This document shows positions 12,376 through 57,760 of a DNA stretch of 64,000 nucleotides, piece by piece. The translations under genes and the position numbers were made by a program. The notes under the pieces were generated by a model. That model saw only the letters and a program-made list of their open reading frames with translations. It did no database searches and was not told where the DNA came from. Position 1 is the first letter of the stretch, and the number at the start of each line of letters is the position of its first letter. Where the stretch lies: the NCBI GenBank assembly GCA_018267315.1, contig JAFDYS010000035.1:1-64000 (forward strand). Reading direction: 5' to 3'. The stretch is from Bacteroidota bacterium. Lineage in GTDB: Bacteria > Bacteroidota > Bacteroidia > Chitinophagales > UBA10324.

Positions 12376-13503
12376 GTGAGAACGGAATTAAACATAAACG
12401 CAAACATGATTACATGGGCAATAGCCCGTGCAGGATATGATTTGCATGAGTTTGTCGCAAAAGTTCCGAGAGTTGGCCAATGGATTAAGGGAGAAAAAAA
12501 ACCAACCGTAAAGCAGTTGGAAATATTTTCCAGGAAAGTGCATTTGCCTTTCGGCTATTTGTTTTTGCCATACCCACCCGAAGAAAAATTACCGATACCA
12601 TTTTTCAGAACCAACAATCCGCAACCTACCAATGTCAGCGTAAATGTTTACGATACCATTTTGCTGATGCAACAACGGCAGGATTGGTTGAGAGAATATT
12701 TGAAGGACAACGATTTCAAACCAATTTCTTTTGTCGGAAAATTTCGTAACCAAGCCAATGTTGCTGCAATAGTTTCTGACATAAGAAACACTTTGGGCCT
12801 GCAGGAAAATTGGGCAAGCCAGTGCGACACATGGACAGATGCGTTGGAAAAACTCACTCATAAAATTGAGGAGACAGGAATTATTTCCGTGTTCAACGGA
12901 GTAGTTGAAAACAACACCAGCCGACCTATTAGTGTTGACGAGTGCAGAGGATTTGTTTTGGTTGATGACTTTGCTCCATTTATGTTTATTAATAACAGCG
13001 ATGGCAAAGCAGCACAGATGTTTACCATTGTGCATGAGTTGGCCCATATATGGACAGGTGAAAGTGCAGGGTTTGATTTCAGAAAACTAAGACCAGCCGA
13101 TAACCCGATTGAAATTCTTTGCGATAAAGTAGCTGCTGAATTTTTGGTTCCGAAAAATACTTTCAATGAAGTGTGGCAGCGAAACCCACAGATAAAATAT
13201 TGTTCCCGATTTTTTAAAGTCAGTGAAATTGTTATTGCAAGAAGGGCTTTAGACACTGGAAAAATTTCTTTGCAGGAGTTTTACAATTTCTATGATGAAT
13301 ACATAAATAGAGAATTTATCAAGAAAGAAAATCAGGCAGGTGGCGGAGATTTTTATGCGACCACTAAAAAAAGATTAAGCATGACATTCGCTGCACATGT
13401 GAACAATGCCGTGAAGGCGGGAAAACTTTTGTATCGTGATGCTTATCGTTTAACCAGTTTGAAAGGTGACACCTATCAAACATTTTTTACACAACATTTT
13501 TGA
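12376..13503 (+). CDS. XRE-like/ImmA-IrrE family metallopeptidase
   Basis: A 375-aa protein with an N-terminal helix-turn-helix-like region (~8-65) and a C-terminal ImmA/IrrE (DUF955/COG2856) Zn-peptidase domain. The zinc motif HELAH is at residues 220-224 and the distal acidic ligand is probably Glu in KVAAEFLVP. Family members cleave repressors in phage, ICE and stress systems, or act as the antitoxin-like half of toxin-antitoxin pairs. GTG 12376 preserves the usual N-terminus (RTELNINANMITWARA-like); ATG 12406 is the alternative. The DUF4411 gene starts 7 bp after its stop. The pair is bordered by the RAYT/repeat island, suggesting mobility. Confidence 0.87.
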   Translation: MRTELNINANMITWAIARAGYDLHEFVAKVPRVGQWIKGEKKPTVKQLEIFSRKVHLPFGYLFLPYPPEEKLPIPFFRTNNPQPTNVSVNVYDTILLMQQRQDWLREYLKDNDFKPISFVGKFRNQANVAAIVSDIRNTLGLQENWASQCDTWTDALEKLTHKIEETGIISVFNGVVENNTSRPISVDECRGFVLVDDFAPFMFINNSDGKAAQMFTIVHELAHIWTGESAGFDFRKLRPADNPIEILCDKVAAEFLVPKNTFNEVWQRNPQIKYCSRFFKVSEIVIARRALDTGKISLQEFYNFYDEYINREFIKKENQAGGGDFYATTKKRLSMTFAAHVNNAVKAGKLLYRDAYRLTSLKGDTYQTFFTQHF

Positions 13504-13509
13504 ACTATC

Positions 13510-14010
13510 ATGAACATTTATGTTGTGGATAGCAATTTTTTCATTGAAGCGCACAGGACAACCTACCCTCTTGATGTGGCTCACAGTTTTTGGAATAAAG
13601 TAAAACTGTTAGCTGATGATGGAAAAATTATCAGCATTGACAAAGTGAAAAAAGAAATTTACGACCATGAGGATGCTCTAAAAACTTGGTGTGTAAATAA
13701 TTTGCCTCAGGACTTTTTCAAAGACACAACACAGGTAATGGCTACATACGGACAAGTAGCTGCATGGGCAGCATCACGAAGCGGACATTATTTGCCAAAT
13801 GCACTTGCAGAGTTTTTAAATGCTGATGAAGCAGATGCGCATATTGTCGCTTATGCTTTGGCAGACAATGCGAATCGAATTGTAACAACACAGGAAATCA
13901 GCGAACCGAGCCGAAGAAACAAAGTCAAAATTCCAGAAGCATGTATTGCACTTGGAGTTCAGTATTGCAATACAATTGAAATGTTTAGACAACTTGGAGA
14001 AACATTCTGA
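13510..14010 (+). CDS. DUF4411 family PIN-like protein, probable toxin
   Basis: A 166-aa protein of the DUF4411 type, related to PIN nucleases. The N-terminus MNIYVVDSNFFIEAH has the first acidic PIN residue (Asp7), with others in KKEIYDHED (Glu, ~49) and NADEADAHIVAYA (Asp, ~112-116); the end has a TTQE stretch typical of the last PIN strand. DUF4411 genes are often found next to ImmA/IrrE-XRE genes, as here, and such pairs are predicted toxin-antitoxin modules. Ribonuclease activity is inferred from the fold, not shown. A two-hairpin repeat module begins ~20 bp after the stop. Confidence 0.82.
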   Translation: MNIYVVDSNFFIEAHRTTYPLDVAHSFWNKVKLLADDGKIISIDKVKKEIYDHEDALKTWCVNNLPQDFFKDTTQVMATYGQVAAWAASRSGHYLPNALAEFLNADEADAHIVAYALADNANRIVTTQEISEPSRRNKVKIPEACIALGVQYCNTIEMFRQLGETF

Positions 14011-14031
14011 CAATGGGTAATTCCCCCCCCT

Positions 14032-14077
14032 CGTCCTCGTCTGTGACGAGGATGCCATTGTTCAGCATTTGCAATGC
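14032..14077. repeat. Two-hairpin palindromic module 1
   Basis: Hairpin one (14035-14051) has arms CCTCGTC/GACGAGG around a TGT loop. After 13 bp, hairpin two (14065-14077) has arms GCATT/AATGC around TGC. A C-run precedes the module. The same design (hairpin, 13-bp spacer starting ATG, hairpin) recurs at 15358 and 15669. It lies immediately upstream of the first RAYT gene. Confidence 0.75.
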
Positions 14078-14115
14078 GAATTGGACTGTTAACTTTGATA
14101 GATACTCATCTTACG

Positions 14116-14670
14116 GTGTCCGGCGACAGATACACAATAACTGATCAACAAGGCATTTATTTTCTCACGTTTACAGTAGTTGACTGGCTGAACGTTTTCA
14201 CCCGCAGAAGTTACAAGGATACAATTGTTGATTCGCTGAATTACTGTATTGCTCAAAAAGGATTGATTGTTTACAATTGGTGTCTGATGAGTAATCATCT
14301 GCACCTGATTGCATCTGCAAAGGAAGATGCAAAACTTTCTGACATCATTCGTGATTTTAAAAAATTCACGGCAAAGAAGATCATTGAGCAAATACAACAG
14401 GAAGGCGAAAGCAGAAAAGAATGGTTGCTGAAACATTTCGAATACGCAGGGAAGTATGATAAACGAATTAAGCAATACAAGTTTTGGAGAGAAGATAATC
14501 ATGCCCTCTACTTACATCCAACTGAAACAAAAATAATCGACCAAAAAGTTGACTATATCCACAACAATCCAGTTGTGGAAGGAATTGTTGAATCACCTGA
14601 AGAATATCTGTATAGTTCGGCAATAGATTATGCCGGGGAAAAAGGATTGGTGAATATTGTTAGAATGTGA
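14116..14670 (+). CDS. REP-associated Y1 (RAYT/IS200-like) transposase 1
   Basis: A Y1 (HUH) single-strand transposase of the REP-associated type. The metal-binding HLH is in SNHLHLI, the nucleophilic Tyr in DYIHNNPV, and the C-terminal signature is SSAIDYAGEKG. The frame opens at ATG 14074 inside a palindromic repeat, but those first 14 residues have no counterpart in the two sister proteins. GTG 14116 gives 185 aa, close to the 182 aa of the others, so I prefer it with moderate confidence. RAYTs are usually domesticated single genes that mobilise or maintain short palindromes. Palindromes with TGT/TGC loops lie upstream and an ACA-loop one lies downstream. Confidence 0.85.
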   Translation: MSGDRYTITDQQGIYFLTFTVVDWLNVFTRRSYKDTIVDSLNYCIAQKGLIVYNWCLMSNHLHLIASAKEDAKLSDIIRDFKKFTAKKIIEQIQQEGESRKEWLLKHFEYAGKYDKRIKQYKFWREDNHALYLHPTETKIIDQKVDYIHNNPVVEGIVESPEEYLYSSAIDYAGEKGLVNIVRM

Positions 14671-14679
14671 TCATTACAA

Positions 14680-14694
14680 ATCGTTACAAACGAT
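14680..14694. repeat. Single hairpin with ACA loop
   Basis: Arms ATCGTT/AACGAT around ACA, 10 bp after the stop of RAYT 1. The loop orientation is opposite to that of the hairpins upstream of the gene, so the gene is bracketed by repeats in inverted orientation. It could double as a transcription stop. Confidence 0.55.
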
Positions 14695-14713
14695 TATCCA
14701 TTTCATCCTCGTT

Positions 14714-14764
14714 AGTCCGGATTTGTAATCCGGACTGATTGAGCCGCGGAATTTGCAATTCCGC
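14714..14764. repeat. Two-hairpin palindromic module 2
   Basis: Hairpin one (14714-14736) has perfect 10-bp arms starting AGTCCGGATT around TGT; hairpin two (14746-14764) has arms GCGGAATT/AATTCCGC around TGC, after a 9-bp spacer. It precedes RAYT 2. An exact inverted copy of hairpin one is at 15772-15794. Confidence 0.8.
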
Positions 14765-14795
14765 AATTGCTACCTTCAATTCCAAACCACCATCC

Positions 14796-15344
14796 ATGGG
14801 ATTCAAATATAAAGCGGATAATCCTGAAGGCATTTACTTCACAACATCTACCATCGTTCAGTGGATTGATTTGTTCACCCGAAAAGAATTACAGGAGGTT
14901 GTCATTGATTCGCTCAATTACTGCCAGCAGGCAAAAGGACTAATAATCTTCGCATGGAGCCTGATGCCAAGTCACCTTCATCTTATTGCTGCTGCAAAAG
15001 GCAAGAATTCCTTATCAGATATTATGAGAGACTTCAAGAAACACACTTCAAAAAAATTGGTGAAGACTATTGAAGAAATTAATGAGAGCAGAAGCAGTTG
15101 GCTCATGAGCGCGTTTGAATTTGCAGGCAGGCCTGATCGTAAAATCAAAGACTTTAAAGTTTGGCAAGATGGTTTTCATCCTGAAGAATTGATTACAAAT
15201 CGATTCATAGATCAGAAGCTGGATTACGTACATAATAATGCGGTTGTGGCAGGATTTGTAAATGAACCTCATCATTATGCATTGAGTTCGGCGATTGACT
15301 ATGCAGGTGGCAAAGGAATAGTTGATATAACCTTTTTAGAATGA
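14796..15344 (+). CDS. REP-associated Y1 transposase 2
   Basis: A 182-aa RAYT of the same subfamily as the genes at 14116 and 57150. HLH lies in PSHLHLI, the nucleophilic Tyr in LDYVHNNAV, and the family ending is SSAIDYAGGKG. The open frame begins at a TTG inside the upstream repeat, but ATG 14796 (MGFKYKADNPEG) aligns with the start of the 57150 protein and gives the same length. TGT/TGC-loop hairpins lie upstream and ACA/GCA-loop hairpins downstream, an inverted arrangement expected of a RAYT with cognate repeats. There are no canonical IS ends or target duplications. Confidence 0.88.
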   Translation: MGFKYKADNPEGIYFTTSTIVQWIDLFTRKELQEVVIDSLNYCQQAKGLIIFAWSLMPSHLHLIAAAKGKNSLSDIMRDFKKHTSKKLVKTIEEINESRSSWLMSAFEFAGRPDRKIKDFKVWQDGFHPEELITNRFIDQKLDYVHNNAVVAGFVNEPHHYALSSAIDYAGGKGIVDITFLE

Positions 15345-15357
15345 TCAATGCGTTTAA

Positions 15358-15404
15358 TGGATTACAAATCCAATGGCTCAACAGATCGGGATTGCAAATC
15401 CCGA
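15358..15404. repeat. Two-hairpin palindromic module 3 (inverted orientation)
   Basis: Hairpin one (15358-15372) has arms TGGATT/AATCCA around ACA; after a 13-bp spacer (15373-15385, beginning ATG), hairpin two (15386-15404) has arms TCGGGATT/AATCCCGA around GCA. It follows the stop of RAYT 2 and its loops are the reverse complement of those upstream. Confidence 0.78.
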
Positions 15405-15645
15405 CCAACGGGGGGTTTGGTTCTGGCAAAAAATGAAAAGTGAAAATGCTTGCAAGAAGCTTGATAAATACATTCAGATTCGCGGAAATATTGCGCATAG
15501 ACGCAAGCATCACGAGAAGATTAGTAAACATGCAGGGAGCGATTTTTTAAATCATGTGTTTTATTTATGTAAGAAAACCGATAATGAAATATCATCTCAT
15601 CTAGAAATTGTAACTGGCATGCGACCCTGGCAATTAGTCAGCTAA
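15373..15645 (+). pseudogene. HEPN (RiboL-PSP-type) domain fragment
   Basis: A 90-codon frame whose first ~15 codons are read from repeat module 3. Similarity to a HEPN domain begins only around WFWQKMKSENACKKLDKYI, so it looks like the 3' end of a longer gene cut off by repeat or RAYT activity. The catalytic-type motif R-x4-H of HEPN ribonucleases is present as RGNIAH (residues 37-42). Full-length RiboL-PSP HEPN proteins are about twice this size or more. ATG 15433 could give a short product, but function is doubtful. The family call rests on motif recognition. Confidence 0.5.
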
Positions 15646-15668
15646 GTCACGCCTCCCTCCCCTCTCGT

Positions 15669-15713
15669 CCTCGTCTGTGACGAGGATGCAATTGAAGCCG
15701 CATTTGTAATGCG
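15669..15713. repeat. Two-hairpin palindromic module 4
   Basis: The first hairpin (15669-15685), arms CCTCGTC/GACGAGG around TGT, is identical to the first hairpin of module 1. After 13 bp the second hairpin (15699-15713) has arms CGCATT/AATGCG around TGT. A pyrimidine-rich, C-rich run precedes it, as in module 1. Confidence 0.78.
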
Positions 15714-15771
15714 AGTGTGTGAGCATTCCCGACCTGCTAAGAAATCAGATTTCAAAGCTGATCATTCAAAA

Positions 15772-15794
15772 AGTCCGGATTACAAATCCGGACT
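15772..15794. repeat. 10-bp-arm hairpin, inverted copy of 14714
   Basis: Arms starting AGTCCGGATT close around ACA. It is the exact reverse complement of 14714-14736, so these two copies bracket RAYT 2, the HEPN stump and module 4 as inverted repeats about 1 kb apart. It lies 18 bp beyond the 3' end of the minus-strand gene at 15812. Confidence 0.75.
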
Positions 15795-16456: not shown

Positions 16457-16522
16457 ACCGTGCAAGTGATTTCAGGAAAGCTAATGTAAGGAATTGCGAA
16501 TCCAATTAGTCCCCCCTCTCGT

Positions 16523-16562
16523 CCTCGTCTCCCGCTGAAATTGCGGGACAGGTGTGACGAGG
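16523..16562. repeat. CCTCGTC hairpin interrupted by a second hairpin
   Basis: The arms CCTCGTC (16523-16529) and GACGAGG (16556-16562) and the TGT loop (16553-16555) are the same as in modules 1 and 4, and the flanks match too. However, 23 extra bases sit between the left arm and the loop. The insert carries its own hairpin, TCCCGC (16530-16535) with GCGGGA (16543-16548). Confidence 0.7.
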
Positions 16563-16587
16563 ATGCCATTATTCATCATTCCTCCGC

Positions 16588-16670
16588 AGTTGTGTCTCTC
16601 GAAGAGGATACGGCGTCGTTAATATGCGCCGTGTCGGCAACCTTCGGAAGCCAGACACGGCTACGGTGAA
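16588..16670. repeat. Long direct repeat, copy A
   Basis: An ~83-bp unit whose last 43 bases match copy B (17263-17344) with one difference; the first 40 are diverged but alignable. It begins near AGTTGTGTCT and ends with AGACACGGCT then ACGGTGAA. These outer parts are largely complementary, so the unit can fold as one long stem with inner hairpins. Copies A and B flank the small secreted-protein gene. Confidence 0.75.
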
Positions 16671-16799
16671 GCAGTAAAGTTTTGCGAACTATGTTGAAGG
16701 TCAGGGGATGAGCAACGGCAGTCAATGGATCTTCAAAGCAATACTTACAATAAATTTGTTCCAATGCCGATGTTGGCAGAAAAATAATTCAGTCCTCAC

Positions 16800-17234: not shown

Positions 17235-17262
17235 GGCAATACCTTCCTCCCTCTTCCTCCCC

Positions 17263-17344
17263 AGCCGTGTCTCGCGCAGCGGACACGGCGCGAATAGTTC
17301 CGCCGTGCCGGCAACCTTCGGAAGCCAGACACGGCTACGGTGAA
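17263..17344. repeat. Long direct repeat, copy B
   Basis: The second copy of the unit at 16588-16670, same orientation, ~30 bp after the stop codon of the enclosed gene. Here the ends are perfect: AGCCGTGTCT at 17263 pairs with AGACACGGCT near its right end. Internal CCGTGTC/GACACGG and GGCG/CGCC pairs form further stems. It may also act as a terminator-like structure. Confidence 0.75.
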
Positions 17345-17588
17345 AAGAAATAATAGTCCTCAACTGCTGCTTGACCCCCCATCAAAACGGTAAAGTGCCC
17401 ACTCTGAGGCGGCTATTACAAAACCACCGCTCTGCTGCTGTACGTGCTGAATCATGCCCTCCTCTGATTTGCCTCATGTATTATTGAATCTTTTAAGAGA
17501 AAACTTTGCACCGGTGATATCTCTCTGCATAATTCCCTCCGGGTTGCAGGGAATATGAACGCACGCGGAATATCAAACATTGGACACC

Positions 17589-18166: not shown

Positions 18167-18185
18167 CTTCCCCTGCAAGGGGAAG
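18167..18185. repeat. Hairpin with GCA loop
   Basis: Perfect 8-bp arms CTTCCCCT/AGGGGAAG around GCA. It has the same design as the island hairpins (variable arms, loop TGT/TGC or complement) and is ~75 bp after the stop of the preceding gene. Confidence 0.55.
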
Positions 18186-56909: not shown

Positions 56910-57054
56910 TCACTGAACAACAATGAACTTCACAAATTCTGTGGAAAGGCCCGGGCACCGGAAACTGCATAAATAGGTGCCTGCTTGTAACGACTGAATG
57001 TCTATCACCAAATTGGTTTGAGTTTCCATAGCATAATCTATGATAGGACGATCC
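56910..57054 (-). pseudogene. T9SS sorting-domain stump
   Basis: The 3' end of a T9SS cargo gene. It reads RPIIDYAMETQTNLVIDIQ..., QAGTYLCS and the basic end KFIVVQ, the classic type A sorting-domain tail. Similarity stops at ~57054, exactly where the left inverted end of the RAYT element begins, so the rest of the gene was lost or displaced. Confidence 0.75.
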
Positions 57055-57103
57055 CTCTGGCGCGCGCATGCCGTATCGCTTTTGTGCAGCGTGCGCGTGC
57101 CCT
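57055..57103. repeat. RAYT 3 left inverted repeat
   Basis: A GC-rich unit with an outer block CTCTGGCGCGCGCATGCCG and inner block GTGCGCGTGCCCT. It abuts the T9SS stump on its outer side and lies 46 bp before the transposase ATG. Confidence 0.75.
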
Positions 57104-57149
57104 TCCGTCGATTTACTTTTGATCTTTCATTGCACATATTAGTCGGATC

Positions 57150-57698
57150 ATGTCAGAAAAGTACAAATTTCTAAACCCCGATGCAATCTATTCAACCACT
57201 TCCACCATCGTTGACTGGATCGATCTGTTCACCCGGAAAGAGTATTGTGAAATCGTTGCAGATTCACTTCGGTATTGTCAGAGGCATAAAGGGTTAGTTA
57301 TTCATGCCTGGTGTCTGATGCCGAGCCACCTTCATCTGATCGTCAGTCGAAGCGGCAAACCATTACTGCCTGAAATCCTGAGAGATTTTAAATCCTACAC
57401 GAATGAGAAATTAATCGGCTGCATGAGCCATATTAACGAAAGCAGGAAGGACTGGCTACTGAGGCATTTTAGTGAAGCGGCGAAGGACATTAAGCGCGTG
57501 GCACATTATAAAATCTGGCAGGATGGCAATCATCCTATTGAGCTGTCAACAAACGAGATGATTGAACAACGCATTCACTATACTCATTTCAACCCCGTCG
57601 AGGCAGGTATAGTAAGTGAGCCCGAATATTATATTTGGAGTTCTGCTATTGACTATGCCGGGGGAAAAGGATTGCTCACTGTTGAGCATTTAGATTAG
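57150..57698 (+). CDS. REP-associated Y1 transposase 3
   Basis: A 182-aa RAYT, same subfamily and length as the 14796 protein. HLH is in PSHLHLIV, the expected Tyr in HYTHFNPVEAG, and the ending SSAIDYAGGKG is shared. The ATG at 57150 lies 46 bp inside the left inverted repeat, and the stop is 5 bp before the right one. Compared with the two island copies it is associated with a different, longer GC-rich palindrome, as expected if each RAYT has its own cognate repeat. Confidence 0.88.
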   Translation: MSEKYKFLNPDAIYSTTSTIVDWIDLFTRKEYCEIVADSLRYCQRHKGLVIHAWCLMPSHLHLIVSRSGKPLLPEILRDFKSYTNEKLIGCMSHINESRKDWLLRHFSEAAKDIKRVAHYKIWQDGNHPIELSTNEMIEQRIHYTHFNPVEAGIVSEPEYYIWSSAIDYAGGKGLLTVEHLD

Positions 57699-57703
57699 AT
57701 AAC

Positions 57704-57753
57704 AGGGCACGCGCACCCTGCGCACCAAGCTCAGCGGCATGCGCGCGCCAGAG
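57704..57753. repeat. RAYT 3 right inverted repeat
   Basis: The reverse-complement partner of 57055-57103, with AGGGCACGCGCAC nearest the gene and CGGCATGCGCGCGCCAGAG at the outer end. The DUF2330 stump resumes a few bases beyond it. Confidence 0.75.
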
Positions 57754-57760
57754 TTGGCAG

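Follow-up and report, generated by a model that had tools for sequence, protein, structure and literature searches.

The closest described relatives of the elements reported here are the REPtrons of TnpA-Y1 subclass 2.6 (RAYT group 5), which belong to the Bacteroidetes phylum, carry the motifs HuH, YIH-NP and SS, and have at their flanks atypical secondary structures that lack GT[AG]G, were identified by manual inspection and also occur as copies elsewhere in the genomes (Quentin et al., 2018, PMC6006769). The REPs of group 3 TnpA-REP from Stenotrophomonas and Marinomonas resemble our hairpins in their perfect stems and short loops, and in that single loop bases are essential for their cleavage while stem bases are less important; they differ in carrying GTAG, in having one REP sequence per enzyme, and in their loops, GCT and TTTA (Corneloup et al., 2021, PMC8266576). 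REPINs likewise consist of two inverted halves, form gene-less units and depend on a RAYT (Bertels and Rainey, 2011, PMC3116915), whereas in the elements described below each half holds two hairpins with unlike arms and no fixed long sequence is kept across copies. Finally, TIRYT or TIRtron elements contain RAYT-like genes between inverted repeats, some of them partly self-complementary; in the parts of their description considered here they are defined by the repeat sequence, and neither a loop rule nor a module is given (Di Nocera et al., 2013, PMC3733652).

In this work, we characterized the hairpins that accompany RAYT genes in a window of 64 kb, that is, the whole stretch of DNA analysed, and in related loci of other genomes. 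These Bacteroidota RAYT ends are a REPtron variant in which the loop rule and the two-hairpin ends appear to be new, the atypical flanking structures being already known. The original prediction had stated that no detailed description of such hairpins exists, which overlooks the structures reported by Quentin et al. (2018) and stands as regards the loop rule, the spacing and the module, since a loop rule, a tag, a two-hairpin module and a four-hairpin unit are all absent from the main text of that study; part of these features may be listed in its supplementary table. Across the literature searched, which included the main text of PMC6006769, we came across no earlier account of the loop rule, the two-hairpin end or the four-hairpin unit. 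Taken together, our results indicate that the hairpins probably delimit REPtron-like mobile units that belong to Bacteroidota RAYTs of TnpA-Y1 subclass 2.6; the loop bases and the nearest stem would be read as such and the outer arm as a helix.

RAYT genes of the window and their hairpin ends

Three genes of one protein family score above the cut-off (80) of the curated RAYT model NF047646: RAYT1 (14116-14670, + strand, 87.4 bits), RAYT2 (14796-15344, + strand, 182 aa, 100.6 bits) and RAYT3 (57150-57698, + strand, 92.4 bits), the first two also matching PF01797. With the IS200 model NF033573, their scores (26.1, 33.1 and 18.3 bits, respectively) are all under the cut-off of 55. The start of RAYT1 is placed by the family alignment at a probable GTG at 14116 (MSGDRY...); starting instead from the ATG at 14074 would lengthen the frame and make it overlap the inner hairpin. 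RAYT1 displays the motifs NHLH (HuH), WR and YIHNNP, and RAYT2 SHLH, WQ and YVHNNA; residues H60, H62 and Y144 (RAYT2 numbering), corresponding to the HuH pair and the catalytic tyrosine, are invariant among 24 aligned relatives, and the nearest solved structure is that of E. coli TnpA-REP, 4ER8. In a comparison limited to motifs, SS of the subclass 2.6 set (NH[LIV]H, WQ, YIH[QN]NP, SS) occurs in all and the others vary. The flanks show atypical secondary structures without GT[AG]G, as in subclass 2.6, and searches of the phylum support Bacteroidota for these RAYTs, which appear to fit that subclass.

The left end of RAYT1 comprises a perfect outer hairpin, TCCTCGTC-TGT-GACGAGGA (14034-14052, + strand; 14030-14052 with its 5' tag CTCG), and an inner hairpin, GCATT-TGC-AATGC (14065-14077, + strand), recognized by sequence and folding; as single-stranded DNA, this module folds with a z of -4.2. 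At the right end, the perfect inner hairpin at 14679-14695 (loop ACA) reads AATCGTT-TGT-AACGATT on the - strand, and what is probably a remnant of the outer hairpin (CATCCTCGTT on the + strand) lies at 14704-14713 on the - strand. We infer that the right outer hairpin is interrupted where the RAYT2 unit starts, the final four bases of the remnant doubling as the RAYT2 tag CGTT (14710-14713). The RAYT2 unit opens with the perfect outer hairpin AGTCCGGATT-TGT-AATCCGGACT, with 10-bp arms (14714-14736, + strand), and continues, 9 nt past it, with the perfect inner hairpin GCGGAATT-TGC-AATTCCGC (14746-14764, + strand), giving a single-stranded module with a z of -6.5. Downstream of the gene, sequence and folding define two perfect hairpins read on the - strand: an inner one, TGGATT-TGT-AATCCA (15357-15371, loop ACA), and an outer one, TCGGGATT-TGC-AATCCCGA (15386-15404, loop GCA), whose tag CGTT (-) occupies 15407-15410, provided that the arm is taken as 10 bp long and as including one G-T pair. 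Beyond the RAYT2 unit, AACG and a G-run match the C-run outside the RAYT1 left end, and in the simplest reading the loop of RAYT1's right outer hairpin would harbour the RAYT2 unit.

Hairpins of both types also occur without a gene of their own, namely a RAYT1-type two-hairpin module at 15664-15713 (+ strand; perfect hairpins TCCTCGTC-TGT-GACGAGGA at 15668-15686, with the same arms as at 14034-14052, and CGCATT-TGT-AATGCG at 15699-15713) and a perfect RAYT2-type outer hairpin with 10-bp arms at 15772-15794 (- strand, loop ACA, tag CGCT on the - strand). A RAYT1-type outer hairpin at 16518-16564 (+ strand) is interrupted within its loop by an inserted 22-bp hairpin (CCCGCTGAAATTGCGGGACAGG). Gene-less REPIN-like units were not seen in the 64-kb window.

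Each of the ten palindromes listed in the original prediction was located in the window sequence at its given position. Throughout the window, nine perfect hairpins have arms of at least 8 bp and a 3-nt loop, and in seven the loop is TGT, TGC, ACA or GCA, compared with 0.95 and 0.1, respectively, in dinucleotide shuffles. As predicted, the loops of RAYT2 are TGT/TGC upstream and ACA/GCA downstream, and RAYT1 shows the same arrangement. The spacers had been correctly read as 13 bp (two modules in + orientation and one downstream of RAYT2) and 9 bp; the third 13-bp module, however, has the opposite orientation (TCTGTTGAGCCAT), and the ATG assigned to it is therefore not homologous to the other two. 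The claim that the palindromes share only their centre proved wrong, the loop-proximal arm position being T in 8 of 10 and most of them reading ATT-TGY-AAT.

As for the neighbouring genes, a toxin-antitoxin-like pair formed by an ImmA/IrrE-type peptidase gene (PF06114) and then a DUF4411 PIN-like gene (PF14367) occupies 12376-14010, directly upstream of the RAYT1 unit, and a fragment of a HEPN (RiboL-PSP type) protein lies at 15373-15645, between the RAYT2 unit and the next module.

Loop, anatomy and arm covariation across RAYT loci

The window's three RAYTs and their 80 nearest relatives from other genomes, nearly all Bacteroidota and obtained by scanning one genome per species, constitute a set of 83 loci, in which we counted perfect hairpins whose arms reach at least 7 bp and whose loop has 3 nt, either near the gene (at most 300 bp away) or distal to it (1.5-3.9 kb). 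Their density was 40.5 per 10 kb near the gene versus 1.46 per 10 kb distally, and other loop lengths reached only 0.4-4.5 per 10 kb. The loop was T-N-Y or its reverse complement in 197 of 198 near-gene hairpins, versus 27 of 49 distal ones; any of the four bases can occupy the middle position, and T preceded the loop in 137 of 158 distinct hairpins. The TGT/TGC loop initially proposed is the commonest case of a wider rule. In the direction leading to the gene from outside, 144 hairpins read T-N-Y and 53 the complement, hence most of them face the gene. The predicted association with RAYTs, with opposite orientations at the two flanks and a conserved loop, was borne out by the relatives' loci. 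In an independent draw of phylum genomes with strong RAYT matches, 27 of 30 hairpins followed the loop rule, with at least one such hairpin at only 16 of 29 loci and a module at only 10 of 58 ends; a more distant RAYT set of the same sample displayed 3- or 4-nt loops, many running from T to a pyrimidine. The loop rule and the inverted hairpins flanking RAYTs extend across Bacteroidota.

A typical end starts with an outer hairpin (about 10 bp), followed after a spacer of 7-16 nt by an inner hairpin that is shorter and equally oriented, and then by the gene; the opposite end is its mirror image, and the two ends face each other. Such a two-hairpin module was present at 48 of the 83 loci at one end or more (25 at both), versus 1 of 1078 distal 300-bp windows, with the outer arm longer than the inner one in 61 of 73 modules (61:12). 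Outer arms measure 7-12 bp, most often 10 in the clade with an ATT core, and the loop is usually closed by a T-A pair. In ATT-core hairpins with 10-bp arms, the four bases before the foot are mostly YGYY (CGTT, CGCT, CGTC, TGTT), with G as the third base ahead of it in 66 of 76; the 3' side is not conserved in this way. This tag resembles in position the GTAG of canonical REPs, but it is limited to some clades; as a universal tag, YGYY is ruled out by the independent sample (3 of 27 hairpins), and dispersed Pedobacter copies carry AT[AC]G.

Covariation of the arms was assessed on hairpins chosen by their 9-base core alone, scoring pairing outside the core. Pairs 3-7 were complementary in 58-65% of rows, versus 25-38% expected from the columns, and pairing dropped to background at pair 8, which indicates arms of 10 bp. 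Among tag-bearing rows, which display several pair types per position, 87% of cells were paired, versus 54% after swaps of right arms (maximum 65% in 2000 trials), kinship between rows remaining in this comparison; for Pedobacter inner hairpins, placed via the outer hairpin, the figures were 93% and 59%, kinship again remaining, as it does in the comparison based on the core. Two loci of one genome that are 89% identical (L049 and L054) carry outer arms CCTGCAAGTC/GACTTGCAGG and CGTGCAAGTG/CACTTGCACG, with changes on both sides, and single RAYTs are flanked by differing arms at W1, W2, L059 and L061. The compensatory change expected for the arms was supported, complementarity being retained through double-sided changes. 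Nevertheless, the arms are not free of conservation: the stem sequence next to the loop is kept within each RAYT clade, its four loop-proximal bases following the RAYT tree with 23 label changes, versus 36-44 for shuffled labels. The proposal that structure and loop are under selection and sequence is not finds no support in this wording, given these 4 bp and the unpaired 5' YGYY tag of many outer hairpins. A comparison of all hairpin pairs within loci pooled inner with outer hairpins and gave no information.

Probable mobile units, rival explanations and a possible mode of action

In two pairs of copies within one genome (L049/L054 and L097/L114), similarity is lost just outside the outer hairpins; this unit-like duplication suggests that a RAYT moves together with its hairpins. 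The sequence CTCGTT-TNY-AACGAG occurs in 1-36 copies per genome in eight Pedobacter genomes, whereas among 22 other RAYT genomes it was absent from 16 and had 2-9 copies in the rest (median 0); without any constraint on the loop, four Pedobacter genomes held 107 copies, of which 97 were T-N-Y, with about a quarter expected by chance. Many Pedobacter copies lie in gene-less units of about 100 bp formed by an outer, an inner, a reversed inner and a reversed outer hairpin, which look like two RAYT-unit ends joined, and the inner hairpins within one such unit differ in their arms (L219, L230, L231). The REPIN-like logic that had been suggested is recovered in these inverted units, dispersed in genomes with the cognate RAYT and carrying, as REPINs do, two inverted halves in one unit. 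For the fixed arm CGGATTTGYAATCCG, a RAYT was present in 4 of 7 hairpin-positive genomes versus 46 of 198 phylum genomes overall, the seven positives being too few to decide because arms vary; GGGATTTGYAATCCC yielded few copies and no clear split in 30 RAYT genomes.

Canonical REPs were discarded as a class for these hairpins by tag, the stem foot bearing YGYY, AT[AC]G or CTCG and no GT[AG]G, and by copy number, with the CCTCGTC hairpin occurring 5 times in the genome of the window and one arm sequence up to 36 times in Pedobacter. CGTC-tagged REPs, which combine that tag with a stem of 8-9 bp starting with AT pairs, a loop of 4-5 nt and no transposase, differ in stem and loop, and here a RAYT is attached.

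One could still regard the hairpins as ordinary REPs, with a fixed sequence per RAYT and an apparent freedom of the arms that reflects divergence between REP classes. REP stems do differ between classes (PMC3733652, PMC3686654), and the loop-proximal core is conserved within RAYT clades; the differing arms around one RAYT and inside one gene-less unit, together with the absence of the GT[AG]G tag, make this explanation unlikely. The perfection of the arms might instead be maintained during replication, with no selection by the RAYT, through template-switch correction of imperfect palindromes, a known process in which both arms would change together. We consider this rather improbable, as it leaves unexplained the fixed first and last loop bases, the 3-nt length, the orientation relative to the gene and the tie to RAYTs.

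Transcription terminators or RNA elements of local small genes are the least credible source of the hairpins: the copy at 15794-15772 (-) has a T-run and scores as terminator-like, but terminator-like sites number 2 versus 1.7 expected, the hairpins stand on both sides of genes in mirror orientation, and none matches Rfam. In IS200/IS605 insertion sequences, the hairpins of both ends lie on one strand, whereas the ends described here are inverted, and our proteins fall under the IS200 cut-off and over that for RAYTs. That the hairpins are ends of such insertion sequences is thus very improbable, even though the enzymes share the HuH Y1 catalytic family and the IS608 and ISDra2 transposases contact a loop T (PMC8266576).

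We therefore favour mobile RAYT units whose ends are recognized as folded hairpins. Arms vary yet stay self-complementary while the loop keeps T-N-Y, hence the enzyme probably recognizes the shape and two loop bases. Folded single strands are the substrate of HuH Y1 enzymes. The hairpins may fold when a single strand is exposed during replication; RAYT would then bind the folded hairpin via the loop-proximal stem and the two bases that begin and end the loop, cut near its foot like other HuH Y1 enzymes, and move or copy the whole unit, or a gene-less unit of two facing ends. The arms could drift while remaining paired, and the loop could not, because the outer arm would be read mainly as a double helix. 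Loop-base recognition has a precedent in group 3 TnpA-REP enzymes, which require single bases of the loop; E. coli TnpA-REP has no such requirement (PMC8266576).

A bolder possibility, to which we hold only tentatively, is a loop-addressed element, that is, a two-hairpin fold of which nothing is read but the initial and final base of the loop and a few stem pairs next to it, so that one RAYT would accept many arm sequences. If true, gene-less four-hairpin populations would share a shape and almost no sequence, and would escape sequence-based REPIN searches. REPs and REPINs have so far been defined and searched for by sequence; since RAYT ends across a whole phylum preserve their fold and two positions of the loop and vary along much of the arm, most copies would go unnoticed in surveys of that kind. 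Furthermore, the natural covariation amounts to an existing collection of mutants showing what the enzyme reads, and two-hairpin ends and four-hairpin units offer concrete substrates for studying how RAYTs move DNA.

RAYT3 and other repeats of the genome

RAYT3 is flanked by GC-rich inverted repeats at 57053-57105 and 57704-57756, in which no T-N-Y hairpins are formed, and is closer in look to TIRYT / TIRtron elements. A second copy of RAYT3 with its GC-rich end repeat, 97% identical, is truncated by a contig end (C43:1-504), the similarity beginning at the outer edge of the end repeat.

The hairpins form no abundant family in the window's own genome, where the CCTCGTC hairpin has its 5 copies, three of them in tandem at C1. 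The excess over shuffled controls observed in the 64-kb window was not reproduced in 320 kb of random stretches of this genome, which held no dispersed population of T-N-Y hairpins and no excess of them.

Other elements were observed in the same genome. A RAYT of another type (L121, C1:123317-124310) is flanked by GTTGTTGGTC-TCCC-GACCAACAAC hairpins, and just downstream of it stand three tandem RAYT1-type two-hairpin modules, about 150 bp apart. A further RAYT at the window edge, from 63854 to C28:64327, is flanked by GTGGTTGGTG-type repeats, and GTGGTTGGCG-TCC-CGCCAACCAC has three exact copies elsewhere (C10:45977, C29:74246 and C29:74472). Within the window, an isolated hairpin with neither a RAYT nor a YGYY tag, CTTCCCCT-TGC-AGGGGAAG (18167-18185, - strand), obeys the loop rule. 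A repeated stretch, GTGTCGGCAACCTTCGGAAGCCAGACACGGCTACGGTGAA, and a near copy of it occupy 16590-16680 and 17262-17345, next to two inverted CCGTGTC...GACACGG repeats.
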